Positions 1,194-46,453 of a DNA stretch of 64,000 nucleotides are shown here, piece after piece. Position 1 is the stretch's first letter, and every line of letters begins with the position of its first letter. Position numbers and translations under genes: made by a program. This DNA is from Pseudomonadota bacterium. Lineage in GTDB: Bacteria > Pseudomonadota > Gammaproteobacteria > Burkholderiales > Burkholderiaceae_E. The notes under the pieces were generated by a model, which was not told where the DNA came from, did no database searches, and saw only the letters and a list, made by a program, of their open reading frames with translations. Location of the stretch: positions 1 to 64,000 of the forward strand of contig JAKPAM010000171.1 in NCBI GenBank assembly GCA_029779435.1, given 5' to 3'.

Positions 1194-1329
1194 TTCCATC
1201 CTTCAAGAGCTTCAACGACTTTGCTCACGAATTAGCGGAACATCCCACTAATGGGCACCTTCGGCACGAGAATGGAGTTGCCTCGCTTGACATCGCCCTG
1301 AAGGGCGAGGCTTGCGCCTTGGCCCGTGG

Positions 1330-4086
1330 TCAACGCACGATGTCGAGACGCCGGCCTATCGCCGCCGCCTCGGCCCGGCTCCTGGCGTTGAGCTTCTGAT
1401 TGATGCTGCGCAGATGAGTTCTGACGGTGCTGTCGGAGATTGCCAGCTCGGCCGTGATTTCTGCGTTGGATTTTCCATCCGCGACCAGTTGGAGAACGCG
1501 AATCTCCTTGCGCGTCAGAGGGGCTGCAAACTGGTTTTCGACCGGCATGTCGCGGCTACCGGACAGTCCGAACTCTTTGACGAGGCGCGCTACATACTGG
1601 ACAAAAACCGGATCGCTGCGCTTTGCCGGCATGGCTTCGAGAGTTGCAAAGAAGCGCGCCACGAGCTTGCCGAACTCGGCCCCTTCTTCAACCAGCAAGC
1701 GAAAAAACCCCTCCCTGCTCGTTTGCCGCAACGTCGTTGCCAACGCTTCGATTGCCGCGGCCGGTTCCCCGCTCTTTTGGAGCGCCAGGCTTTGAAGCGC
1801 ACGCAATTTTTCGGCGCGCAACCGCCATTGTCTTTGCGCAGCCACCTCGAGTTCTGTTTGCACATTGGCAAGCGCTGCCTGCGCATCGCCGAAATGGATC
1901 TCCCACCTGATGCTGGCGAGTACATGGTCATTGGTTTCATGGGCAAGAAGCCGCTCGGACACCAATCGGTTCCATACATCGAGGTTCGCGGCGTGATCGA
2001 GTTCTTCCCGTGACGCCTGCCCGTCGCCCTGGAGCAGATGAAGCAGGCCCCGTTCCAGCCTCGCGCTGGCGATCAGGCGCGGAAGTCGTCTGCGATGACC
2101 GAGGTGCTCGAGCACGCTCAAGGTTTCGAAGGCTTTCTCGATGTCGCCGCGGTCAAATGCGATGCGCGCCCGTATCCTATGACCGATGATCATATGGTCG
2201 GGCAGTGCAGCATCGCACGCCATGGGCAGGTAGATATTGATGAGTTGGTCGGCAGCGTCCAGTTCGTTGGTTTCGTACATTGCCGCTGCATACAGAATGC
2301 CGGCCCAGGAGTTTCCGCTCACATGGCTGTAGGAAGTACCGCGAGACGCTTTGAGTGCGAGACGGAATTTGGCTGTTGCCGATTTGAGCTTTCCCCTGCG
2401 CAAGTCCAGAATGCCCGAAAGCGATTCGGCGTACATGTAGTTGAATGCGCTGTCGCCATACAATGTCCGCGCGTAATCGATCATGGCCTGCGCAGCATGG
2501 GCGTCCCCCGTGCTGGCGAAGATGGTGGCCATGGCATTGCACAGCACGCTATCGGCGAACGTGTCGCCGGTCGGCAACTTGGCTATGCTTGCCGGCCCGA
2601 CCTCACGGGCCTCTTGATATCGATCCTGCATGGCGAGAACGAGCGGACGTAGCGCATCGATATGCGGGGTCACGCGCGGGTCTTCCAGGGTCGAGGCGCC
2701 CAGGCCTGCCATGCGCTCGGTCGCGGTCCATGGTCCATGCGTGAACAGCGTTGCCCATATCCGAACGATCTCGAGCAGAGGGTCAACCGCAATATATTGG
2801 CTTGGGATGGTGTCGAGCCAATTCGAAAGCAAGCTCATCCGGCCCTGCTCGAGCAGGCTTATGCCGTTGCCCGCCAGCATCGAGACCGCAAACCCGAAAT
2901 CCCCGGCGCATATTGCATGATCGATTGCGGGGATGGGGCGGTTTTGGGTGGCAAACCAGCGAGCGGCGGCGAGATGCAGGGATGACATCTCTTCGGGCTG
3001 CCTGGAAGCCAGTCGCTTCCTCAGATAATCTGCGAAGAGCGAGTGGTAGCGAAATGTGCGCTCCTGGCCCGAAACCGGAATGACGAAAAGGTTCTGGTCT
3101 TCTAGAAGTTGGAGGGTCTCCGCAGCATCAATGTCGGGCAACAACGACTGGCATAGAGCGGGCGTGAAGTGACGAAGAATGCTGGTTTGCAACAAGAAAC
3201 GTTGCAGGCTTTCAGGCTGGAGGGCGAAAACCTCCTCCGAGAGGTAGTCCGCCACGGATTTGGTTGAGCCTGAGAAGCGCGCGACGAAATCATCGTTCGG
3301 ACCTTGGCGTTCGATCGACAACGACGCCAGCCAAAGACCTGTGATCCAGCCTTCCGTTTTCTCGTGCAAGCGCACCACAATCTCGTGAGTGATCCCGGGG
3401 ACCGACCGGAGCCGGAAATACTGCTCGGACTCCTTCATGCTGAACCGCATCTCATCGGGACCGATCTCGAGCAAGCGACCTGAACCTCGCAGCCTGGCCA
3501 GGCCGATCGGGGGCAAGGTGCGCGACGCGATGATCAAGCGGCCGTTCGGCGGCAGCCGCTCGATGACCGATTTCAGGAAGGTAAGGACGGCATGCTCTTC
3601 GATGAGCTCGAAACAGTCGATGAAGATCGCAAATGGCGCCGTATGCCTCAGCAAGGCATGCACCAGATCGATGGAGAGGTCGGCGCCGTCGTCGGCGTCG
3701 AGCATTTTCGCAGCGGAACCCAGCGCTTCGACGAACTGCGCTGGATTGTCGTGGATCCTGTCCAGAGTAAGCCAGGCGATCGAGACGCCTTGCGCCTCGA
3801 GCCTCGCTCGCACCTGCAGCATCGCAGTGCTCTTGCCGAATCCGGCCGGCGCGTGAATCAGAATCAGCCGCACCGCATCCGTGGCTGTTATTCGGTTGCA
3901 GATCTCCGTCCTGAATACTTGGACGGCAGGGCCTGGAAACGGCTTGAGCGGGGTCTCGAGGACAGGCGATCTCAGGCGCTGCAGCGGGTCCCCGTCCGCA
4001 ATTTCATTTGCCTCCATGGAGAAAATCCGCTTCGCCTGCATTCCCGAACCGAAGGCTCGATATCCGATGATACCGTCGGATGCCAC
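1330..4086 (-). CDS. MalT-like LuxR-family ATP-dependent activator
   Basis: A 918-residue protein with the layout of large LuxR (LAL/MalT) activators. A Walker A motif (APAGFGKST, about residues 79-87) lies in an N-terminal STAND-type NTPase domain. A long alpha-helical TPR-like middle follows, and the last ~60 residues form a LuxR helix-turn-helix (LTRKEIRVLQLVADGKS, then AEITAELAISDSTVRTHL). Such proteins bind ATP and an inducer and activate nearby catabolic operons. It lies 72 bp downstream of the P450 on the same strand, so it could be co-transcribed and control it. The long form starts at a GTG. ATGs at 4041 and 4017 are alternatives, and none has a strong ribosome site. A sampled row is about 60% G+C, lower than the flanks. 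Confidence 0.85.
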   Translation of the reverse strand: MASDGIIGYRAFGSGMQAKRIFSMEANEIADGDPLQRLRSPVLETPLKPFPGPAVQVFRTEICNRITATDAVRLILIHAPAGFGKSTAMLQVRARLEAQGVSIAWLTLDRIHDNPAQFVEALGSAAKMLDADDGADLSIDLVHALLRHTAPFAIFIDCFELIEEHAVLTFLKSVIERLPPNGRLIIASRTLPPIGLARLRGSGRLLEIGPDEMRFSMKESEQYFRLRSVPGITHEIVVRLHEKTEGWITGLWLASLSIERQGPNDDFVARFSGSTKSVADYLSEEVFALQPESLQRFLLQTSILRHFTPALCQSLLPDIDAAETLQLLEDQNLFVIPVSGQERTFRYHSLFADYLRKRLASRQPEEMSSLHLAAARWFATQNRPIPAIDHAICAGDFGFAVSMLAGNGISLLEQGRMSLLSNWLDTIPSQYIAVDPLLEIVRIWATLFTHGPWTATERMAGLGASTLEDPRVTPHIDALRPLVLAMQDRYQEAREVGPASIAKLPTGDTFADSVLCNAMATIFASTGDAHAAQAMIDYARTLYGDSAFNYMYAESLSGILDLRRGKLKSATAKFRLALKASRGTSYSHVSGNSWAGILYAAAMYETNELDAADQLINIYLPMACDAALPDHMIIGHRIRARIAFDRGDIEKAFETLSVLEHLGHRRRLPRLIASARLERGLLHLLQGDGQASREELDHAANLDVWNRLVSERLLAHETNDHVLASIRWEIHFGDAQAALANVQTELEVAAQRQWRLRAEKLRALQSLALQKSGEPAAAIEALATTLRQTSREGFFRLLVEEGAEFGKLVARFFATLEAMPAKRSDPVFVQYVARLVKEFGLSGSRDMPVENQFAAPLTRKEIRVLQLVADGKSNAEITAELAISDSTVRTHLRSINQKLNARSRAEAAAIGRRLDIVR

Positions 4087-4158
4087 CCGATAAAAAGAGT
4101 GGCCGTCTCATCATCATTCGAACTCTGACCAATGACCGAGCAATGCGCCGGACCGCTA

Positions 4159-7100
4159 TCAGCTCGAAGCCCAGACATCGACGCGGTAGCGTCCCCCCTT
4201 CATCATCTGATCGAAACCCGCCTCGGCCTCGGCCTCGGCGTCGCGGATGCCCAAGCCGTCGCTGACGACCCGCGTCAGCGCGCGTCGGACATCCGGTTCC
4301 ATCTTGCCGGCGTCGCCGCAGACGTAGATCAGCGCGCCCTGCTGAAGCAGTTCCCACACCCTGTTCCTCTCCCGCCAGATGAGGTCCTGAACGTAGACCT
4401 TTTCGGACTGCATCCGCGAGAACGCGACGTGCAGTTCGGTCACACCCTTTTCGGCGAATGATTGGAGTTCGTCGGCGTAGATGAAGTCGTTGTCGCGGTG
4501 GCGACAGCCGAAGAACGTCATCGACGGACCGATCGCCAAGCCGTCGCGCTTGCGCGCTTCGCGATCCTGCAGGAAACCGCGGAACGGAGCGAGCCCGGTG
4601 CCCGGGCCGATCATGATGACCGGCACCGAAGGATCGTCGGGCAGGTAGAAGGACGACTTCGTGTCGCGAACGAAAGCGTACGCATTGCTGCCTTCGCGCA
4701 GCCGGGCGATGTAGTTCGAGCACACGCCGGCATAACTGCCGCGCCCCGAGCGCGCCGGCCCGCGCACCGCGCCGACGGTGATGCTGAGGCGGCCACGGTT
4801 CTCTCGCGGAGACGACGAGATCGAATAATAGCGAGGAGCCAGCGGCGGTAGCATGCCGAGATAGATCTCGATCGGCAGACGGCACGCCCGGTACTCCTCG
4901 AGCAGATCGATGATCGAACGTCGCTTCTGCAGGATTTCCGTCCGGTAGGTGTCGCCCTCGGTGGCCGCCAGCTTCTCCAGCGCCGCCTTGGTCACCGGGC
5001 ATTCGGCGTACGCGGCGAGCAGCCTGATGTCGGAGCGCGACGCGATGCCCTGCAATTCCACGTAGTCGGCCAGAAGCCTGTGGACGGCGATGCGATCGTC
5101 GACCGGTAGGAACGTGCGGCGGTCATCGTGCTTGCGGATAAGGATCATGGTGTCCGGCGAGAAGCCGAAATGGCCGGCCACCCTTTGCACCAGATCGTCG
5201 CTGTTGTGGCTTATGACGCCGAGATGGTCGCCGGCACGATAGGTCACGCCCTCCGGCAGCTCGAGTTCGACATGCCGAGTCGACGGAGAATCCGGGCTGC
5301 CGTCGACACCGGACAAGAGTTCGCGGTTCTGCACGACCCGCATCGGAATCGCCCCGAGCGACGACACGAACGGGCTTTGCCTCTGCCCCGAAACCACTTC
5401 GACCGTGAACATCGGGCCGGTGATCTTGTGCCCGACCTCGAGACCGAACTGCTGCGCGAGCCTCGGCCACAAGCCCTCGTACCAGGCTTCGAACTGGCCG
5501 GCGAAATCGTCGGCCTCGTCACCTTCGCCGCGCTGGTAGACGCGTTGGGCGCCGGCGCGCTCCATAAGTTCGTCGACCTTGCGCGGTATCTCCTGGAAGG
5601 TCGCCGCCCAGTCGTGGTTGCCGCAGCCGAAGACCGCGTATTTGACGCCGGATAGCGCGCCTTTCTCGCACCCTTCCAGCCACTCCAGGAACCTGACCGC
5701 GTTGTCGGGCGGCGTGCCGTTATAGGTGGCGGTCACGATGATCACCGCGCCGTTGTCGGACAGGTCGTTCACGTGGTCGTCGAGCGGCGCGATCGTCGCC
5801 GAGAAGCCTTGCGACTTCGCGTCGAAGCCGATGCGCTGGGCATGATCCTCGGCATTGCCGAAATTGGAACCGTAGAGGACCAGGATCGGCGTGCCATGCT
5901 TCTTGTCGGACGCTGCCTGCGATAACTGCACGGACTCGTCCTGCGGAGCGAGCGCCGGCGTCGCGGCATCGCGCACAAGCGCGCCCTTGCGCCTGCCAGG
6001 CGTGAACTCGGCCTGCATGTGCTTGAAATTAGTGACGAAGCTCGAGCGCAGCCGCACCGGTTTGCCGACGATGCGCAGGTCGGGAATGCGGGTCAGCAGC
6101 TCGGTGAAGATGACGCGCGCCTCGAGCCGGGCGAGATTGGCGCCGAGACAGAAGTGAGTGCCGTCGCCGAACGAGATGTGTCGGTTGGGCGAGCGGCGGA
6201 TGTCGAAGACGTTCGGATTCTCGAACACGGCCTCGTCGCGGTTGGCCGAGGCGTAGTTGATGACCACCTTGTCGCCGGCCGCGATCTTCTGGCCGCCGAG
6301 TTCGGTGTCGACCACTGCCGTGCGGCGGAATTGGATGACCGGCGGCGCATAGCGCAGCATCTCCTCGATCGCGCTTGGAAGCAGGCTCATGTCATCGAGC
6401 AGTAGCTTCCTTTGCTCCGGATACATGGTCAGCAACTGCATGCCGTTGGCGATCAGACTGCGTGTGGTCTCGTTGCCCGCGATCATCAGCAATTGGAAGA
6501 AGCGATCGAGCTGGTTCTGGCTGAGCTGTTCGCCGTCGACGGTAGCGTTGGCGATCAGGCTCCAGACGTCGTTGCCGGGATTGGCGCGCTTCTCGGCCGT
6601 CTTGCGCGAAGCGTAGCCGAACATCTGCTTGACCGTCTCGATCAGCGCCAGGCCCTCCTGCAGGCCCGCATCCGGATCGTCATAAGCGATCATCGTGTCC
6701 GTCCAGCGGTGCAGCAACACGCGATCTTCGGATGGAAAGCCGAAAATGTCGGCCAGCACCAGCAGCGGCATTTCGGCCGCTACCCGCTCGAGAAAATCGA
6801 CGGACCCTTCTTCGATGATATTGTCCACCGCCTCGCGGGCGTGATCCTCTATGGAGTCCTTGAGCTGGTTGATGATCTGCGGCGTGAACACGCGGTTGAC
6901 GATCTTGCGCAGCTTGCTGTGCTGCGGCGGATCCATGTTCAGCATCATATGCCGAACGATCTCGAGGTCCTTCGGTCGCAGATCGCGAACCGTCGTGCCA
7001 CCGGCATAGGATGAGAATATCTCCGGATGCCGCGACACCTGCTGGATGTCCGCATGGCGGAAAACTGCCCAGTAGCCGGTTCCCCCGGCGAAATTCTTAG

Positions 7101-7215
7101 TGGGCGGCTCGTCCATCCAGCAAACCGGGCTTTCGCGCCGGTAGCGGGCCAAGGTGTCGTAGGGAATGCCCTCGTCGAAGAGCGCGAAATCCGCCAGATC
7201 TATCTTCTCGTTCAT
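4159..7215 (-). CDS. self-sufficient cytochrome P450 fused to diflavin (BM3-type) reductase
   Basis: A 1018-residue single-chain monooxygenase. Residues 1-410 are a P450 heme domain. It has an I-helix AGNETT (246-251), ExxR at 285-288, and a heme loop HISFGDGTHFCLGANLARLE with the thiolate Cys about 356. The run MLNMDPPQHSKLRKIVNRVF is typical of CYP125/124/142-like bacterial P450s, not CYP102. Residues ~442-585 are an FMN flavodoxin domain (VLYGSNFGNAE, TATYNGTPPDNA, VFGCGNHDWA). The rest is an FAD/NADPH reductase with RYYSISSSP, GPGTGLAPFRGF and the terminal RYRVDVWAS, all very close to BM3. The start is ATG 7215 with GGAG seven bases upstream. Its ATG overlaps the stop of a ligase fragment (ATGA). 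It should hydroxylate a hydrophobic substrate with NADPH without separate redox partners. Confidence 0.93.
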   Translation of the reverse strand: MNEKIDLADFALFDEGIPYDTLARYRRESPVCWMDEPPTKNFAGGTGYWAVFRHADIQQVSRHPEIFSSYAGGTTVRDLRPKDLEIVRHMMLNMDPPQHSKLRKIVNRVFTPQIINQLKDSIEDHAREAVDNIIEEGSVDFLERVAAEMPLLVLADIFGFPSEDRVLLHRWTDTMIAYDDPDAGLQEGLALIETVKQMFGYASRKTAEKRANPGNDVWSLIANATVDGEQLSQNQLDRFFQLLMIAGNETTRSLIANGMQLLTMYPEQRKLLLDDMSLLPSAIEEMLRYAPPVIQFRRTAVVDTELGGQKIAAGDKVVINYASANRDEAVFENPNVFDIRRSPNRHISFGDGTHFCLGANLARLEARVIFTELLTRIPDLRIVGKPVRLRSSFVTNFKHMQAEFTPGRRKGALVRDAATPALAPQDESVQLSQAASDKKHGTPILVLYGSNFGNAEDHAQRIGFDAKSQGFSATIAPLDDHVNDLSDNGAVIIVTATYNGTPPDNAVRFLEWLEGCEKGALSGVKYAVFGCGNHDWAATFQEIPRKVDELMERAGAQRVYQRGEGDEADDFAGQFEAWYEGLWPRLAQQFGLEVGHKITGPMFTVEVVSGQRQSPFVSSLGAIPMRVVQNRELLSGVDGSPDSPSTRHVELELPEGVTYRAGDHLGVISHNSDDLVQRVAGHFGFSPDTMILIRKHDDRRTFLPVDDRIAVHRLLADYVELQGIASRSDIRLLAAYAECPVTKAALEKLAATEGDTYRTEILQKRRSIIDLLEEYRACRLPIEIYLGMLPPLAPRYYSISSSPRENRGRLSITVGAVRGPARSGRGSYAGVCSNYIARLREGSNAYAFVRDTKSSFYLPDDPSVPVIMIGPGTGLAPFRGFLQDREARKRDGLAIGPSMTFFGCRHRDNDFIYADELQSFAEKGVTELHVAFSRMQSEKVYVQDLIWRERNRVWELLQQGALIYVCGDAGKMEPDVRRALTRVVSDGLGIRDAEAEAEAGFDQMMKGGRYRVDVWASS

Positions 7216-7475
7216 TGACTGTCTCCAAAACGCTTTCCAGGTTCGACCCTGAGCCGCTCGCCCGCGGCATTGCGCGGTAATTTCTCGACGATCTCGAGCC
7301 GCCGCGGCAGCTTGTAGCGAGCCAGGGTGTCGCCGCAAAACGACCTCGAGCCGTCGAGATCGAGGTTCTCGTCGGCTGCCAGCTCGACGATCGCGGCCTC
7401 CGTCTCGCCCCACTTCTCGTCGGACAGGCCGATGACGGCGACATCGGTCACCGCCGGATGCCTGAACAACACGTC
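7212..7475 (-). pseudogene. acyl-CoA ligase, C-terminal stub only
   Basis: This minus-strand frame encodes only the last ~85 residues of an AMP-forming ligase: HPAVTDVAVIGLSDEKWGET, then LARYKLPRRLEIVEKLPRNAAGE. The usual A10 lysine region PRNAAGK reads PRNAAGE. No adenylation core exists upstream, and the similarity stops near 7475. Its stop codon TGA shares bases with the P450 ATG (ATGA), the arrangement of a translationally coupled operon. The donor operon was therefore probably ligase-P450, and the 5' part of the ligase has been lost. A nearby complete ligase (10231-12069) may supply the activity. Confidence 0.8.
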
Positions 7476-7849
7476 ATCGATTCCGGCCGGCTCCGGCTGT
7501 CCGTCGTCGATCCGGTTCTCGCCAGAGCCAGGGCATACAGCTACGCCTGGATGGGCGGGGCGCCATCGTTGCTCCAGACGATGAGTTCCGACTGGCGATC
7601 CTGAACTGGTTCAGGGAAGGGGAGATCGTCGGTTCCGACGATGGGCCGGCGTTCGGGCGGCAATATGGTTCAAACCATGACGAATGATGATCATGGAGTG
7701 GTCCCCCTCGCCCGTTCGGCGTTTGCCGTCGTCGCTGCCGGGGTTGGCAGGCCGCAGGAACTCCGTGCCCGGAGGCTGGACCAGCAGGCTGCGGTGCCGT
7801 CGTGTGGCATGACGCCATTCGCCCGCAGGCCGCTCAGCGTCGATTTCGT
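7476..7849. other. scrambled spacer in the island
   Basis: No intact gene is visible. A short plus-strand frame (about 7530-7687, ending GSDDGPAFGRQYGSNHDE) looks protein-like but I cannot assign it. The ligase stub ends at its left border and the esterase relic begins at its right border. The stretch probably holds the joints of one or more deletions. Confidence 0.4.
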
Positions 7850-7982
7850 TGATCTGTTCGACAAAGGGAATGCAATCGGCGTCGACCGTTCGCGCCTGTC
7901 GATCGGTGGCGACAGTGCGCGCGGCAACATCGCGGCGGCGGCCCGGCCGTGGCGCAACGAGCCCTCCAATGGAGCAGGCTAG
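7850..7982 (+). pseudogene. HSL-family esterase/lipase relic
   Basis: The plus frame reads IGVDRSRLSIGGDSARGNIA and ends at TAG 7980-7982. This matches the nucleophile elbow of hormone-sensitive-lipase-like esterases (GIDPxRLAxGGDSAGGNLAA), with Ser conserved and one Gly changed to Arg. Neither the HGGG oxyanion block nor the Asp/His end of the domain is present, so it is a fragment, not a working enzyme. It ends six bases before the GTG of the PhaC-like gene. Confidence 0.55.
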
Positions 7983-7987
7983 GCGTC

Positions 7988-9046
7988 GTGAACGGCAAGC
8001 CCTCATTCGACCCTTGCGAAATCGACCGCGCGATCCAGCGTAACCTCAAGGGGTTCGGCTATCTCGGATCGCAAGGGCCGGCCATGGGGGTCTCGCCGAA
8101 GACCTTGCTGTACGAGCGCGGTACCTTGAGCCTGTACCATTACCTGCCGCTAACCAGGGAAGTGTATTCGGTTCCGCTGATCCTGGTCATGGCAACATCG
8201 AACAAGGCCTGTGTCTTCGACCTGGCACCGGGCCAAAGTCTGATCGAGTTTCTGCTGAAGCGGGGCCATGCCGTCTACGCCATGGATTGGAATCCTCCAT
8301 CCGGAGAGGAACGCTACCTGAAAATCGAGAACTATGTTCTCGATTTCATTCCCGACTCCATCCAGCGCGTGCAGCAACATTCCGGTGAGGATGAAGTCAC
8401 GCTGGTCGGCTATTGCGCGGGCGGTCTGCTTTCGGCCCTCTATGCCGCGCTGCATCCGGCAGGACCCCTCAAGAACCTGGTTTGCTTCACGACGCCGGTC
8501 GATTTCCGGGAAGTGACGCTCTATCGCGCATGGACCGGCGCCAGGCATTGCGACGTGGATCGCCTGGTGGATGCGGTCGGAATCATTCAGCCTGATGCGG
8601 TGGCCGCCGGCTTCGATGTGCTTCGACCGGCCAGCTACGCGGCGGCCAAGGTTCGGCTCTGGGAGAATATGTGGAACAACCCGTATGCCGAGGCTTTCCA
8701 GCAGATGGAACGCTGGGCCGGGGAGACGCTTCCGCTTGCCGGAGAATACTTCCGACAGTTCGTTCGTAAATTCCTGCGGGGTAATGACCTTTACGAGGGC
8801 GAACTGACGATCGGTGGAAAGCGGTTGAATCTCGCGGACATCGAGGTCCCGCTGCTGCACGTGCTCGCCCGGCACGATCGCATCGTGCCCCCGAAAAGCG
8901 CTCGGCCGTTGATCGAACTCGTCGGATCGACGGACAAGGAGGAGCTTACGCTGCCAGGCGGACATGTCAGCCTCTTCGCCGGTCCGAACGCGGTCAAGCG
9001 CATGTGGCCGAAGCTGCATCAATGGATTGGAGAGCGATCGGCGTGA
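7988..9046 (+). CDS. class III PhaC-like alpha/beta hydrolase
   Basis: A 352-residue protein the size of class III PHA synthase subunit PhaC. The lipase-like box is GYCAGG with Cys about 143 as nucleophile, the cysteine version that marks PHA synthases. An acid residue follows in LARHDRIVPP and a His in LPGGHVSLF near the C terminus. A PHA synthase polymerises 3-hydroxyacyl-CoA, but no PhaE or PhaR partner is encoded nearby. In this catabolic setting it could instead act as an acyltransferase or thioesterase on a CoA ester. The frame stays open back to 7949. GTG 7988 is chosen because it lies after the esterase relic's stop, with GGAG about 12 bases upstream. Start uncertain. Confidence 0.8.
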   Translation: MNGKPSFDPCEIDRAIQRNLKGFGYLGSQGPAMGVSPKTLLYERGTLSLYHYLPLTREVYSVPLILVMATSNKACVFDLAPGQSLIEFLLKRGHAVYAMDWNPPSGEERYLKIENYVLDFIPDSIQRVQQHSGEDEVTLVGYCAGGLLSALYAALHPAGPLKNLVCFTTPVDFREVTLYRAWTGARHCDVDRLVDAVGIIQPDAVAAGFDVLRPASYAAAKVRLWENMWNNPYAEAFQQMERWAGETLPLAGEYFRQFVRKFLRGNDLYEGELTIGGKRLNLADIEVPLLHVLARHDRIVPPKSARPLIELVGSTDKEELTLPGGHVSLFAGPNAVKRMWPKLHQWIGERSA

Positions 9047-9186
9047 GAACACGAGCTCGGCGCTATCCGCGTACGGTCGTCTCCGGCGATGCGGAAATCG
9101 TCATTTGCAGCACGTCCAGCGCGGACGCAGACGAATTTGCGCAGTTCAATACGGCCACAGGCACTGGCGGCGCCTGTGGCCTACAC

Positions 9187-9633
9187 TCAATGTGAGGAAG
9201 TAGTTGCTGTGGACCGATAGGTCTTATTCACTTCTATCGGCGCAAGACCACGTGCCAGCATGGAGCGGTAAGTGGCGAAAGGCATGAGCAACGGATGCAC
9301 CGCAGACAAACCGCCTAACCCCGGCAGCATGCGGCGCACCATCGAAGCACGCAAGCTCTCCATCCGCTCACCCATCATCAAGCCCAACAAAGCCACATCG
9401 CGTCCTAGCCGCAGCCTCGGCCAGGTGTGGTAATCGGAGGCGGCCTGGATGCTCACCTCCGTGCCCAAGGTGATTGACGCCTGGATGGCCGCGCTAAGCG
9501 AAGGGCGCATACACAGGCTGGTTGTGCGCGATGCGACGGGCACGATGGTAGGCTGCACCGCCCTGTTGACGGAAGAAATGACCTGGTAGGGTAATCTATC
9601 CAGCCGATGCGCCCCGACCGCACCGGGGAACAC
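9187..9633 (-). other. unassigned open frame, possible gene remnant
   Basis: The minus frame ends with a protein-like run (HTWPRLRLGRDVALLGLMMG ... AVHPLLMPFATYRSMLARGL) that I do not recognise. A plus frame at 9449-9589 (46 codons, including LSEGRIHRLVVRDATGTMVG) also looks coding. Both cannot be right, and neither has a clear ribosome site. The stretch lies between the PhaC-like gene and the IS91 relic and is probably a fragment of something carried in with the island. Bases 9047-9186 hold nothing recognisable. Confidence 0.25.
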
Positions 9634-9639
9634 TCGTTC

Positions 9640-10160
9640 TCACCCCCGCCAGTGCCCACCTCGACGGCCGGCGCCATCGAGCTGTACCCGCTCGTCCGAC
9701 AGCGCTGGCCGCGTGATGTACCGGCACAACCGCTCCAGCCGCTCGCGCTCGTGGGCTGCGCAGCGCACCGCCGCATGCAGGCTGAAACCGTCCATCTCGA
9801 CGCACAGCGGCTGGCGCGCCATGGTCTCGCGCGGCCGCGCGTCGCGCGGCCTCAGCACTTGTGCCCGGCCCGTGGCCCGAAGGCAATACGGTAGGTCAGC
9901 GCCGCGGCCTGCAGCAGCCGCAGCGTACGCGCCTCCCCACCATCCGTCTCAAGCTCGGCCAGCCAGGTCTCGCCCAGGTCCTGCTCCAGCACGCCCTGAC
10001 GCGTGAACAGCTTCATCAGCCGAGTGACCAGAGTCTGCAGCACAGCCTGGATCTGATCGTCGGTCGGCGCTCCCGCCTCGATGAACTTCGGCACGCCGTC
10101 GGCATTTCGCCTATACAGCCTCTCTTCACGAAACTCGTCGAATCCGACGATGCCAGCCGG
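9640..10160 (-). pseudogene. IS91-family (Y2) transposase relic
   Basis: Two minus-strand frames carry the C-terminal half of an IS91/ISCR-like transposase. The first reads APTDDQIQAVLQTLVTRLMK, then EARTLRLLQAAALTYRIAFG. The second reads ETMARQPLCVEMDGFSLHAA, then ERLERLCRYITRPALSDERV. A one-base frameshift near 9857 separates them, and the N-terminal catalytic HUH/Tyr region and the far C terminus are missing, so it is dead. IS91-type elements move adjacent DNA by rolling-circle transposition, so a relic here is relevant to how the block was assembled. Confidence 0.8.
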
Positions 10161-10230
10161 GCATACGGGCCCTAGAGTGATCACCGATAAGCTGGCGGAG
10201 GTGATACGCCGGCAAAACGGGAGAGAGACA

Positions 10231-12069
10231 ATGAGAAAAGCGCATTTCGAGCAGCGCGAGCTTGACGAACGGAACCGGACCGCCAATGCGTTATTGAGTG
10301 ATGCTCCCCGCGTCATCGATCTCATCGAACGAGGCGCTCACCTTAACCCCGACGGCGATGCGTTGGTCTTTCTGCGGGCTGCCGAGGATCGTCAACCAGC
10401 CAGGCTATCGTATCGGCAATTGGTCGCCACGATTGCTGGAACATGTGTTCGCCTCAGAGAACTCGGTGTCGGGCCACAAGATGTGGTCTCTATAATGGCC
10501 CCGCCGAGCCCCGCAACTTTCGTTGCAATCTGGAGCGCGATGGGCTGCGCGGTCGCGCATCCGCTGAACTTGCTCTTTTCCCGTGACGCGCTGGTGAGCC
10601 AATTGACCGCCGCGCGGACGAAAATACTGGTGGTACCGCCGAAGGGTGAGCCGGGAGGACTCTACGAGAAGGCGGAGGGATTGATCGACGAGGTTCCGAG
10701 TCTGCAGCGGATCGTCTCAGTTCCACTCGATGGCTCGATCAGCTTTGATGGCGTCGAAATCGAACCTGACTTGAATTGGTCGGGCACGCTGCGTGCGCTC
10801 AAGAAGGAGAAAGCGCCGGACCAGGTGACCGCGCTCTTCCCAACGGGCGGAACCACGGGGCACCCGAAGATCGCTTGCTTGACGGATCGATCGATGGCCG
10901 CTTCAGCCATCGGCTCGCTTCTCGCTGTCGACTACGGGCCGGAGGACCGGGTGTTTGTCGCCCTGCCGCTGTTCCATGTCGGCGGGGCATTCGTACTGAC
11001 CCTTGCCTCGCTTGCCGGCGGCGCGGCCGTCTATATTCCGACGATCCTTGGGGCGCGAGACCCGGCGGTGGTCAAGAACTTCTGGGGCATCGTCGATCAT
11101 TTCAGGATAACGGTAGCATCGCTCGTCCCGACGACGCTCGCGGCAATCGCGGTTTCGCCGCGCGATGGTCCTTCGACCGCCAGCCTGCGCTTCGTGGGTA
11201 CCGGCGCCGCACCTTGTCCGCCGGAGACCGCTCGCCAGGTGCTGGCGGCGTGGGGCGGTGACGCAGTGCGCCAGGTGTACGGAATGACAGAATTCAGCGG
11301 CGCGATTGCCCAGGTTCCGCACAACAAATTGCCAGCCGACGGCTCTGTCGGATTGCCAGTGGCGCTTGCCGAAGTGGCGATCTTGACGAATGAGGCGGCG
11401 CTGGACCGGTCCGCCCGAGAGATCGGCGAACTGGTGGTCCGCGGTCCGCAAGTCTTCTCCGGGTATCTTGACGTTGGCCACAACGATGGCACGTTCCATG
11501 AGGGATGGTTGCGAACCGGCGACCTGTGCAAGATCGACGACGCCGGACAGATTCACATTCTCGGGCGCATCAAGGACCTGATTATTCGTGGTGGGCACAA
11601 TATCGATCCGCTCATGATCGAGGATGCCGCAATGGAATACCCCGGCATTTCGACAGCTGCTGCGGTCGGACGGCCCGACAGCTATGCGGGCGAAGTGCCC
11701 ATGCTGTTCGTAACGCCGGCGGAAGGTCGTCTCATCGATGTCGACGATTTGCGGGCTTTCCTTGAGAAGCGAATTTCGGAGCGGCCGGCATTGCCGAAAT
11801 CGATCGAGGTTCTGGAGCAGATGCCGCTGACACTGGTGGGCAAGATCTTCAAGCCGCGCCTTCGCGAACTGGCGGCAGAGGTCGAAGTCAATTCGCTGGT
11901 GAGGCAGGCCGTCCCTGATGCAAACATCGCCGTCAAGGCTCTTATCGACCCCGCGCGGGGCGTTGTCGTGCAAGTTGCAAGCACGAAGCTGGACCAAGCC
12001 GTGCGAAATGCTGTGCTCAAGGTTTTGGCTAGCTTGCCGCTGCATTGCGAAGAGGTTGATCCCAATTGA
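10231..12069 (+). CDS. AMP-dependent acyl-CoA synthetase/ligase
   Basis: A 612-residue ANL-family enzyme that activates a carboxylic acid to its CoA thioester via an acyl-adenylate. The P-loop is PTGGTTGHPKIA, the A5 motif is YGMTEFSG, the A7 region is WLRTGDLCKIDDAG and the hinge is GRIKDLIIRGGHNIDP. The A10 lysine is present in LVGKIFKPRLRE. A ~70-residue C-terminal extension beyond the usual end is seen in some ~600-residue members. The upstream frame is open to 10081, but ATG 10231 has GGGAGAGA just upstream and falls after the IS91 relic. It is followed by a small gene 47 bp downstream on the same strand, a likely two-gene operon. It could activate the acid produced by P450 oxidation. 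Confidence 0.9.
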   Translation: MRKAHFEQRELDERNRTANALLSDAPRVIDLIERGAHLNPDGDALVFLRAAEDRQPARLSYRQLVATIAGTCVRLRELGVGPQDVVSIMAPPSPATFVAIWSAMGCAVAHPLNLLFSRDALVSQLTAARTKILVVPPKGEPGGLYEKAEGLIDEVPSLQRIVSVPLDGSISFDGVEIEPDLNWSGTLRALKKEKAPDQVTALFPTGGTTGHPKIACLTDRSMAASAIGSLLAVDYGPEDRVFVALPLFHVGGAFVLTLASLAGGAAVYIPTILGARDPAVVKNFWGIVDHFRITVASLVPTTLAAIAVSPRDGPSTASLRFVGTGAAPCPPETARQVLAAWGGDAVRQVYGMTEFSGAIAQVPHNKLPADGSVGLPVALAEVAILTNEAALDRSAREIGELVVRGPQVFSGYLDVGHNDGTFHEGWLRTGDLCKIDDAGQIHILGRIKDLIIRGGHNIDPLMIEDAAMEYPGISTAAAVGRPDSYAGEVPMLFVTPAEGRLIDVDDLRAFLEKRISERPALPKSIEVLEQMPLTLVGKIFKPRLRELAAEVEVNSLVRQAVPDANIAVKALIDPARGVVVQVASTKLDQAVRNAVLKVLASLPLHCEEVDPN

Positions 12070-12116
12070 TCGACCATGCATGACAGCTATTTTGCTGGGT
12101 TGTGGAGGATTGCCGC

Positions 12117-12923
12117 ATGAGCTTGTTGGAAGCAGAAGATTTCTTGGCGGAATGCGAAGCGCTTCATCAGCTTGCGGCAGCGCAGGATGAAACCCGTCTT
12201 CAGACAAGAACGCAATTCAAGGGTTGGTCGGTGGAAGATGTGCTGGTGCATCTCCATTTCTGGAACCGCGCAGCAGATCTCTCGCTGACCGACGAAGCGG
12301 CGTTCCAAGACTTGCTGGCCAAGGCAGGTCCGGCTTTGCGGTCAGGTCAGCTTCGCGCACTGGAGAACAGCACGATTGCCCAACGCGGCGTAGCCTTGCT
12401 CGATGCCTGGATCGCGCAAGCGCGCGACATGGCGAACCGCTGGCGTAGCCTCGATCCTAAATTGCGCCTGCCATGGGCGGGTCCCTCCATGTCGGCCCGG
12501 TCGTCGATCACGGCGCGCCAAATGGAAACCTGGGCGCACGGCTTCGAGGTTTTTGATGCCTTCGGAACGGTCAGGCAAGAGAGCGATCGGATCAAGAATA
12601 TTGTCGTTCTGGGCGTCAACACATTTGGATGGTCGCACAAGGTGAACGGCCTCGAGATCCCCGAGAAAATGCCGTTACTGCGACTGCTAGCTCCATCAGG
12701 CGCGATCTGGAGCTTCGGCGACTTGGCAGCCGGCGAAATTCTTGGACCGGCAGCGGACTTTGCCGCGGTGGTCTCGCAAACGCGCGCGGTCGCGGATACG
12801 CAGTTGACGGTTCGAGGCGCGGTCGCGGCGACCTGGATGGCGCATGCCCAATGCTTCGCAGGCCCCGCAGAACAGCCGCCATCGCCGCAAAGCCGATTCA
12901 TGAGCGTCACGGTCAGAAACTGA
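12117..12923 (+). CDS. TIGR03084/MDMPI-like DinB-fold protein
   Basis: A 268-residue protein resembling the TIGR03084 family, related to mycothiol-dependent maleylpyruvate isomerase and DinB folds. The N-terminal four-helix part carries FKGWSVEDVLVHLHFWNRAA and a later block reads RQMETWAHGFEVFDAFG, giving the spaced histidines that usually bind a metal. A C-terminal sterol-carrier-like half ends near the stop. The family is common in actinobacterial catabolic clusters beside acyl-CoA genes, but its reaction is not established. The start is ATG 12117, preceded by GGAGG eight bases upstream. It lies 47 bp after the ligase. The stop is only one base from the start of the second MFS fragment. 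Confidence 0.75.
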   Translation: MSLLEAEDFLAECEALHQLAAAQDETRLQTRTQFKGWSVEDVLVHLHFWNRAADLSLTDEAAFQDLLAKAGPALRSGQLRALENSTIAQRGVALLDAWIAQARDMANRWRSLDPKLRLPWAGPSMSARSSITARQMETWAHGFEVFDAFGTVRQESDRIKNIVVLGVNTFGWSHKVNGLEIPEKMPLLRLLAPSGAIWSFGDLAAGEILGPAADFAAVVSQTRAVADTQLTVRGAVAATWMAHAQCFAGPAEQPPSPQSRFMSVTVRN

Positions 12924-12924
12924 A

Positions 12925-13044
12925 GTGGGCCCGTTGATCGGCACGCTGTGCTATGAATTCGAACCGAGTGCGCCTTATTGGCTGATCGTCGCCATGCTGG
13001 TGCCGATGGCTGTCTGGCCGATGCCGGCCGGGCGTTCCGCTTAG
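12925..13044 (+). pseudogene. 3' stub of a second MFS transporter gene
   Basis: The plus frame encodes GPLIGTLCYEFEPSAPYWLI, then VAMLVPMAVWPMPAGRSA and a TAG stop. It corresponds to the last ~38 codons of the MFS gene ending at 865. About 15 of 114 bases differ, mostly silent, so the copies have been diverging under selection and are not a fresh duplication. Nothing upstream belongs to an MFS gene: the homology begins one base after the stop of the preceding gene. It marks the right border of the ~12 kb block. Confidence 0.85.
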
Positions 13045-45043: not shown

Positions 45044-45223
45044 GAATTCGGGAACGAAGCGGCCACGCTCGACGTGACGCGCCGGGGTGATGCCGCTCGC
45101 GCCTCCGCTGCATCCACGGGTTCCGACGCGATCGGCGTCGATGGCCCGCATGGGGCGAAGGCGCCGATCGGTCGCGGTATCATCGGCCGCGGATCGGACG
45201 CGTGAGCGATGAGGCACGGAGAC

Positions 45224-46453
45224 ATGGAACAGATCGTCGTGATTGGGGGCGGGCATGCCGCCGCGCAACTGTGCGCGGGATTGGTCGAAGCCGGTATCGG
45301 GCCGCGGGTGCACCTGGTCTGTGAAGAGCCGCTGCTGCCGTACCAGCGTCCGCCGCTGTCCAAGACCTTCCTGAAGAATTCGCAGGAAGCCACGCAGGTC
45401 CACAAGGCCGAGAACTGGTACCAGCAGGCGGGCATCACCGTGCATCTGGGCGACCCGGCCGTGCGGATCGATCGCGAGAACCGGCGCGTGCACCTGCGCT
45501 CGGGCGCCGAGTTGGCGTGGACCCGTCTCGTGCTGGCGACCGGCACGCGGGCCCGCGCGATGCCGGGCTGGCCCGCCGGCCTCGCCAACGTCATGCCGTT
45601 GCGCATAGCCGAACATGCGACGCGCCTGCGCGCGCAACTCGCCGACGCCCCGTCGGTCACCGTGATCGGCGGCGGCTTCATCGGGCTGGAGGTGGCGGCG
45701 ACCGCCGCGGCGCTGGGCAAGTCGGTCACGGTGATCGAGTCGGCGCCCCGGTTGATGGGGCGGGCCGTGTCGCCGATGCTGTCCGAGTTCGTTCTCGGCG
45801 TGCATCGTGCCAACGGCATGGACATACGGCTCGCGTCGCGCATCGATGAGGCGCGCTTCGATACGGGCCCCGATCGCTTGGCCGCGCTAAGTGTCGACGG
45901 CCGGCCGGTAGCCGTCGATCTGGTCGTCATGGGTATCGGCGCCGTCCCCGAGACGACACTGGCCGAGGCGGCCGGCCTCGAATGCGCCGACGGCGTGCTC
46001 GTCGATTCGGCGATGCGCACGAACGATCCGGCGGTGCTGGCGATCGGTGATTGCACGCGCTTCACCGATCGGCGTTCGGGCAAGGTACTCCGGCTCGAAT
46101 CCGTGCAGAACGCCAACGACCAGGCGCGCACGGCGGTGGCGACGCTGCGCGGCGAACCGCGCGATCACGACGCCGTGCCCTGGTTCTGGTCCGACCAGGG
46201 CACGATCCGATTGCAGATGGCGGGCCTGGTCCCGCCCGAGTCCACGCCGGGCCATCAGGTCGTGCGGCGGCCGGGCGCGAACGAACGCTCGTTCTCGCTG
46301 TTCCACTACGTCGACGGCCAATTGCGCTGCGTCGAATCGGTCAACGCGGCGCCCGATCACATCGCGGCGCGCAAGCTGCTCGAACAGCACCGTAATCCCG
46401 ATCCGGCGATGGTCGGCGATCCGGCCGTCGCGTTGAAGACGCTGCTGGTTTGA
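45224..46453 (+). CDS. FAD-dependent ferredoxin/rubredoxin reductase-like
   Basis: A 409-residue flavoprotein like the reductases of Rieske dioxygenase or P450 chains (BphA4/ThcD type). An FAD site VVIGGGHAAAQ opens the protein. PYQRPPLSKTFL gives the conserved Lys-bearing segment. The NADH site is VTVIGGGFIGLEVAATAAAL, and the second FAD block reads AIGDCTRFTDR. It passes electrons from NADH to a ferredoxin, but no ferredoxin, P450 or oxygenase gene is adjacent. ATG 45224 is placed right before the FAD motif; ATG 45209 is possible, and neither has good ribosome-site spacing. Confidence 0.88.
   Translation: MEQIVVIGGGHAAAQLCAGLVEAGIGPRVHLVCEEPLLPYQRPPLSKTFLKNSQEATQVHKAENWYQQAGITVHLGDPAVRIDRENRRVHLRSGAELAWTRLVLATGTRARAMPGWPAGLANVMPLRIAEHATRLRAQLADAPSVTVIGGGFIGLEVAATAAALGKSVTVIESAPRLMGRAVSPMLSEFVLGVHRANGMDIRLASRIDEARFDTGPDRLAALSVDGRPVAVDLVVMGIGAVPETTLAEAAGLECADGVLVDSAMRTNDPAVLAIGDCTRFTDRRSGKVLRLESVQNANDQARTAVATLRGEPRDHDAVPWFWSDQGTIRLQMAGLVPPESTPGHQVVRRPGANERSFSLFHYVDGQLRCVESVNAAPDHIAARKLLEQHRNPDPAMVGDPAVALKTLLV

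Follow-up and report, generated by a model that had tools for sequence, protein, structure and literature searches.

Cytochrome P450 BM3 is prized for carrying heme and reductase in one efficient chain, with a heme half that acts on fatty acids. Here we analyze a natural gene in which a reductase of the BM3 type is joined to a heme half of another kind; it lies on the minus strand, at 4159-7215, of a 64,000-nucleotide stretch (the window) at the start of a 192,664-base contig (JAKPAM010000171.1) in a draft genome of a Pseudomonadota bacterium (GCA_029779435.1). P450 BM3 or the CYP102 family is given as the bacterial class VIII type in PMC11173547, PMC9112060 and PMC12126322, one of which also names P450 AZC1 of Azorhizobium as self-sufficient. 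The window fusion shares with CYP102 the domain order heme-FMN-FAD/NADPH (flavin mononucleotide, flavin adenine dinucleotide and reduced nicotinamide adenine dinucleotide phosphate) and up to 51% identity in the reductase, but its heme half belongs elsewhere among the P450s. In heme fold and sequence it resembles CYP125, CYP124 and CYP268, which are mycobacterial steroid and branched-lipid P450s. According to PMC6469627, the carbon at the end of the cholesterol side chain is oxidised by CYP125, CYP142 and CYP124, which use ferredoxins and reductases as separate proteins, whereas the window enzyme is fused and stands outside the CYP125 clade. CYP116B enzymes (class VII) are self-sufficient as well, but their reductase, of the phthalate-dioxygenase type, contains FMN and 2Fe-2S domains, the latter of which the window fusion lacks. 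A class I heme domain on a BM3-type reductase is also the design of a CYP153A-BM3 reductase chimera, built in 2013 and functional, which its authors call to their knowledge the first active fusion of a bacterial class I heme domain with such a reductase (PMC3815936); that chimera is man-made and uses another heme family, whereas the window fusion is natural.

The frame is intact, and its layout is as follows:

4159-7215, minus strand: self-sufficient P450 fusion gene, a single frame of 1018 codons plus stop
5998-7215, minus strand: CYP125/124-like heme domain, residues 1-406, with AGNETT from residue 246, EMLR at 285-288 and the heme ligand Cys356
5899-5997, minus strand: poorly conserved linker of about 33 residues (approximately residues 407-439)
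5482-5880, minus strand: FMN (flavodoxin) domain, residues 446-578, Flavodoxin_1, with YGSNFGNAE at 448
4711-5346, minus strand: FAD domain, residues 624-835, FAD_binding_1, with RYYS at 795
4285-4614, minus strand: NADPH domain, residues 868-977, with GPGTG at 870, SRMQSEKVY at 933-941 and CGD at 966

An alternative GTG start farther upstream would give a protein of 1084 residues; the ATG at 7215 is the start of the part that can be aligned with relatives. All four Pfam-A matches, to p450 (8.5e-28, best stretch 213-376), Flavodoxin_1 (1.6e-31), FAD_binding_1 (8.9e-33) and NAD_binding_1 (4.3e-13), lie above their cut-offs, and chance is excluded. A P450 and an FMN/FAD/NADPH reductase are thus contained within one chain, which is the class VIII layout, and the reductase consists of Flavodoxin_1, FAD_binding_1 and NAD_binding_1, with no Fer2 domain among the Pfam matches. 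In comparisons with solved structures, CYP125 chains match residues 5-406, and bifunctional P450/reductase chains match 420-1017 or 195-1017, the best such fusion covering 195-1017 at 7.5e-160. The fusion that the original prediction had placed here is confirmed, as are the two class I motifs it had quoted for the heme side, MLNMDPPQHSKLRKIVNRVF from residue 91 and FGDGTHFCLGANLARLE from residue 349; FGDGTHFCLG, at residue 349, holds Cys356. The FMN domain starts with HGTPILVLYGSN (residue 440), and DVWA at residue 1013 places a C-terminal tryptophan, W1015, behind the NADPH domain. On the model of P450 BM3 we take SR...K.Y to be the motif that reads NADPH, and the C-terminal tryptophan to cover FAD. 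When the window fusion was aligned with a second fusion from the same genome (see below) and with five CYP102-type reductases (L010, L014, L023, L182 and L184), the flavin and NADPH motifs, in which BM3-like features had first been noticed, were kept with small changes in the second fusion and in L010, L014, L023 and L182 (for example NLGTAE for NFGNAE, RFYS for RYYS and DVWV for DVWA); L184 deviates in GPGTG, SR and K.Y.

The heme half is CYP125/CYP124-like. Compared with solved structures it scores highest with a reconstructed CYP125 ancestor (447 bits), followed by CYP125 (324-314), CYP124 (309-299), CYP268 (299), CYP126 (281) and CYP142 (229). A structure model built from 41 sequences reached a predicted local distance difference test score (pLDDT) of 89.7 for this half and ranks CYP125 and CYP124 first by fold, with a template modelling (TM) score of 0.93 to 8vxi; a single-sequence model (pLDDT 35.6) was not used. 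By blastp the heme half is 51.9% identical to the reconstructed ancestor, and two real CYP125s reach 38.8% and 38.3%; the nomenclature rule for membership of a CYP family is more than 40% identity to its members. Among the sequences compared, the nearest are the second fusion (64.6%), the Rhodococcus plasmid P450s L190 and L189 (51.0%) and a Chloroflexi P450, L024 (49.9%). In a heme tree of 45 rows the two fusions pair with support 100/99 and are sister to L189/L190 (100/98). Placement inside the CYP125 clade was rejected by the approximately unbiased (AU) test, both when the pair was held with seven CYP125 rows, among them L175, which falls within that clade (p = 1.05e-6), and when L189 and L190 were added to the constraint (p = 2.8e-4). 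Judged by these trees, the heme half is CYP125/124-like, as originally predicted, but not a CYP125. It is also foreign to CYP102 by the same kind of evidence: in a tree of 82 rows, 13 CYP102-type heme domains form a separate group (support 100) on a very long branch, and the heme half lies apart from every one of them, contrary to what membership of that family would predict.

The reductase half has different relatives. We built a tree of 32 rows rooted on six CysJ-like rows, so labelled from their matches annotated as sulfite reductase, in which 24 rows form the CYP102 group; 13 of these have a heme half checked in the 82-row heme tree, L011, L012 and L015-L022 count as CYP102 by reductase and layout alone, and the reductase of L187 is annotated separately from its P450. 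The two fusions pair (99/97) and then join 14 proteobacterial CYP102-type reductases (99/96); identity to CYP102-type reductases reaches 51%. The separate trees are thus discordant, one half being CYP125-like and the other of the proteobacterial CYP102 type, which upholds the proposed fusion of unlike halves. The genome also holds a CYP102-type gene of its own (L003), which sits elsewhere in the reductase tree and, on that placement, is not a likely source of the fusion's reductase. In the case of L187, from Rhodococcus gordoniae plasmid pDND3A, the annotation gives neighbouring genes, and not a single one, for a P450 and a CYP102-type diflavin reductase.

The genome carries, on a different contig (C50:11894-14950), a second full-length fusion with the same four Pfam domains. 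The two proteins are 58% identical overall, 65% in the heme half and 53% in the reductase half, and both halves form sister pairs, a pattern from which we infer that there was probably one fusion event followed by duplication.

Beyond this genome the architecture was not found again within the limits of our searches. The genome sets overlapped and, where applicable, contained the genome of the window itself; each search had its own E-value limit, and in the larger sets scoring was confined to a few top initial candidates per genome (two in the set of 398). With the heme half as query, sets of 369 genomes of the class, 300 of the order, 289 from the class of G132, 246 from the phylum of a Rhodococcus and 131 from the phylum of a Chloroflexi genome gave among their listed matches no further genome with a frame of fusion length except L168 (908 residues), which ends directly after the heme domain and is not a fusion. 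With the whole protein as query, none was found in sets of 61, 74 and 398 genomes, and 11 further genomes or records, reached via individual loci, gave none save an unrelated fusion on a Paracoccus plasmid. A 941-residue frame, L195, was also considered and rejected, being a reductase without a P450 and with no heme match (its upstream part was judged by eye). Across 204 compared loci, heme-half matches at E <=1e-20 comprise 176 frames in 165 loci, and eight of these frames extend at least 300 residues past the match. Five of the eight belong to the two fusions (with repeats), one is the CYP116-like gene and two come from a single Paracoccus gene. Among 72,556 plasmid records, 1519 match, the best places all at less than 60% identity, and five cover at least 80% of the query. 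The first 16 plasmid matches listed span both halves; in the nine examined (H1-H4, H6, H7, H10, H11 and H16, the set thus leaving aside H5, H8, H9 and H12-H15), seven heme halves group with CYP102 (L181-L186 and L188), one is L187 and one is the Paracoccus fusion. Viral contigs gave no match, and a scan of a contig collection with two heme-side peptide patterns gave no fusion in the best 80 of 117 relatives, a result that says little on other fusions. No description of a natural fusion of such make-up was found among the papers listed by searches of an open-access library, from which most subscription journals are absent, and the heme family of P450 AZC1 could not be checked.

The Paracoccus fusion, like the window gene, departs from the CYP102 or CYP505 heme domains that the original prediction gave for known natural P450-diflavin fusions, and so the window gene is not unique in this respect. 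It is a frame of 970 residues on plasmid p2 of Paracoccus sp. TOH (NZ_CP098363.1; L111:3746-6658) with p450, Flavodoxin_1, FAD_binding_1 and NAD_binding_1 domains, annotated in its reductase part only. Like the window fusion it joins a non-CYP102 P450 to a diflavin reductase, but the heme halves of the two are 27% identical, and its reductase falls with the CysJ-like outgroup rows (support 100). Annotated P450s of Ruegeria and Gordonia plasmids share 56-58% identity with its heme half, their matches being confined to that half, and plasmid flavoproteins, several of them annotated as sulfite reductase, share up to 53% with its reductase half. Among the 1293 plasmid records that match it, one covers 80%, namely itself. 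Judging from these relationships, the Paracoccus fusion looks like an independent event. On balance we favor the view that the window gene and its second copy represent a separate natural family, with a CYP125/124-like heme on a CYP102-type reductase, and that, together with the Paracoccus case, capture of a diflavin reductase by P450s has happened at least twice outside CYP102, so that the exchange of modules practised by engineers is also a recurrent route of evolution.

Domain order and motifs make it very probable that the window gene encodes a natural self-sufficient, NADPH-driven P450 monooxygenase. By its anatomy it would work like a class VIII enzyme while belonging neither to CYP102 nor, on the tree, to CYP125. 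NADPH would give hydride to FAD, electrons would pass singly via FMN to the CYP125/CYP124-like heme domain, and the heme domain would hydroxylate a hydrophobic substrate; we propose this electron route and oxygen chemistry because they are established knowledge for P450 BM3 and bacterial P450s. As to origin, a P450 of a kind whose nearest relatives have ferredoxin and ferredoxin-reductase neighbours was probably joined to a CYP102-type reductase, and the fused gene was later duplicated. Directly behind the P450 gene of L190 come genes for a ferredoxin and an FAD-dependent reductase, in a cluster that also contains CoA (coenzyme A) ligases, an acyl-CoA dehydrogenase, a thiolase and alcohol and aldehyde dehydrogenases, and in L189 a ferredoxin (69.7%) and a reductase (66.8%) matching those of L190 adjoin the P450; the two nearest relatives therefore have a class I arrangement. 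The same queries found no such genes beside the P450s at the other seven P450-bearing loci searched.

The gene lies about 4 kb from the start of the contig, in a stretch whose composition differs from that of the remainder of the window:

1300-12950: compositionally atypical stretch, probably an island, guanine plus cytosine (GC) content 61.9% against 67.6% for 13.1-64 kb
1330-4086, minus strand: MalT-like regulator with TPR_MalT and LuxR-type GerE domains, just downstream of the fusion on the same strand
7215-7541, minus strand: 109-residue stretch of an AMP-binding C-terminal domain, directly upstream of the fusion
7949-9046, plus strand: PhaC/alpha-beta hydrolase-like protein, within the atypical stretch
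10081-12069, plus strand: AMP-binding acyl-CoA synthetase-like protein, within the atypical stretch

A TIGR03084 protein is also encoded within this stretch. Its tetranucleotide distance from the host baseline is 0.261, compared with 0.079-0.153 (GC 64.8-68.9%) for 20 overlapping stretches of 11.65 kb from 13.1-64 kb, each compared with a baseline that excluded it; other host pieces gave 0.101 (from C194) and 0.157 (8 kb, further along C127). The MalT-like regulator could possibly control the fusion gene. We interpret the 109-residue stretch as what is left of an acyl-CoA ligase gene. The stop of this stretch shares bases with the start codon of the fusion (ATGA), and its best match among the compared loci is a ligase in the L190 cluster, from Rhodococcus sp. 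008 (45.7% over 81 residues, against 40.7% in its own genome), which suggests an earlier ligase-P450 operon. Between 7217 and 7950 on the plus strand, an esterase-like piece (GGDSARGN) was seen by eye and may be a further gene remnant. An Rfam search of the window gave no match at gathering thresholds, and a promoter and terminator scan gave matches no more than chance.

How such a gene came about could be explained otherwise. The genome (4.97 Mb), probably assembled from a metagenome, is a draft in 289 contigs, and the gene lies near a contig start; the draft state and this position would suit an assembly artefact joining two genes; yet a second fusion of the same layout, 58% identical, lies on another contig, the halves of the two are sisters in their own trees and there is no frame break. 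The second full-length copy thus makes an assembly join, which had been named as a possible refutation, very unlikely, and we consider the artefact highly improbable. That the gene is an ordinary divergent member of CYP102, to which its reductase and overall layout would be suited, is practically negligible, with the 13 CYP102-type heme domains apart (support 100) and the heme half 52% identical to the CYP125 ancestor and 51% to the two Rhodococcus P450s; the grouping of the heme inside CYP102 on which the idea of a new fusion could have foundered is not what the tree gives. The two reductases, at 53% identity, are only a little closer to each other than to CYP102-type reductases (51% at most), as might be expected had the reductase been captured twice, but both halves form sister pairs (99/97 for the reductase and 100/99 for the heme), and two independent fusions seem to us improbable. 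Some observations do weigh against the reading of a natural self-sufficient monooxygenase formed with a CYP102-type reductase. The architecture is known here from one draft genome, 83.7% complete and 3% contaminated. A reductase tree in which the 24 CYP102 rows stand apart from the fusions is not rejected at the 5% level (AU p = 0.072, and 0.217 with one distant outgroup), so that, while the predicted grouping with CYP102 reductases is recovered and nesting is favored, descent from inside CYP102 is likely and not proven. Moreover, the upstream ligase is a fragment, and the original pathway may be partly lost.

The same fragment is a sign of decay in the stretch, and with a ferredoxin-reductase-like gene (33.9%) at 45221-46228 of the window it could point to a fusion protein that is made but is poor or decaying, its true electron donor being another reductase. 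However, the flavin and NADPH motifs are kept in both copies, which would not be expected under decay, and we regard this explanation as quite improbable. As substrate we tentatively predict, at clearly less than even chances, the side chain of a sterol, an isoprenoid/terpenoid or a branched lipid, whose terminal methyl group would be oxidised before CoA ligation; the ligase context points weakly to such a role in side-chain oxidation. The nearby CoA ligases would suit fatty acids also, but a plain fatty acid, as for BM3, is in our view somewhat unlikely, since the heme half resembles P450s whose structure titles name cholestenone, sitosterol, phytanic acid, farnesol or pseudoionone as bound in the solved structures. 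If the monooxygenase reading is true, the fusion would be a ready catalyst for sterol/terpenoid-type side-chain oxidation without partner proteins, and the two diverged copies would reveal changes in linker and interface that let a ferredoxin-type P450 take electrons from FMN, changes directly comparable with those in engineered chimeras.

The surroundings of the second copy are atypical too, although less so, with tetranucleotide distances of 0.236 and 0.17, and a regulator of the MalT-like type, distantly related to that of the window (31% over 383 residues), lies about 5 kb from it. Beside it on C50 (L191:4532-11597) are a LuxR-type regulator, a weak cytochrome c match and a DUF1800-DUF1501 pair. 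Besides the two fusions and the CYP102-type gene on C194, the genome encodes a P450 with a C-terminal 2Fe-2S domain in a CYP116-like layout (L005, on C166), and therefore has four self-sufficient P450s of three types.
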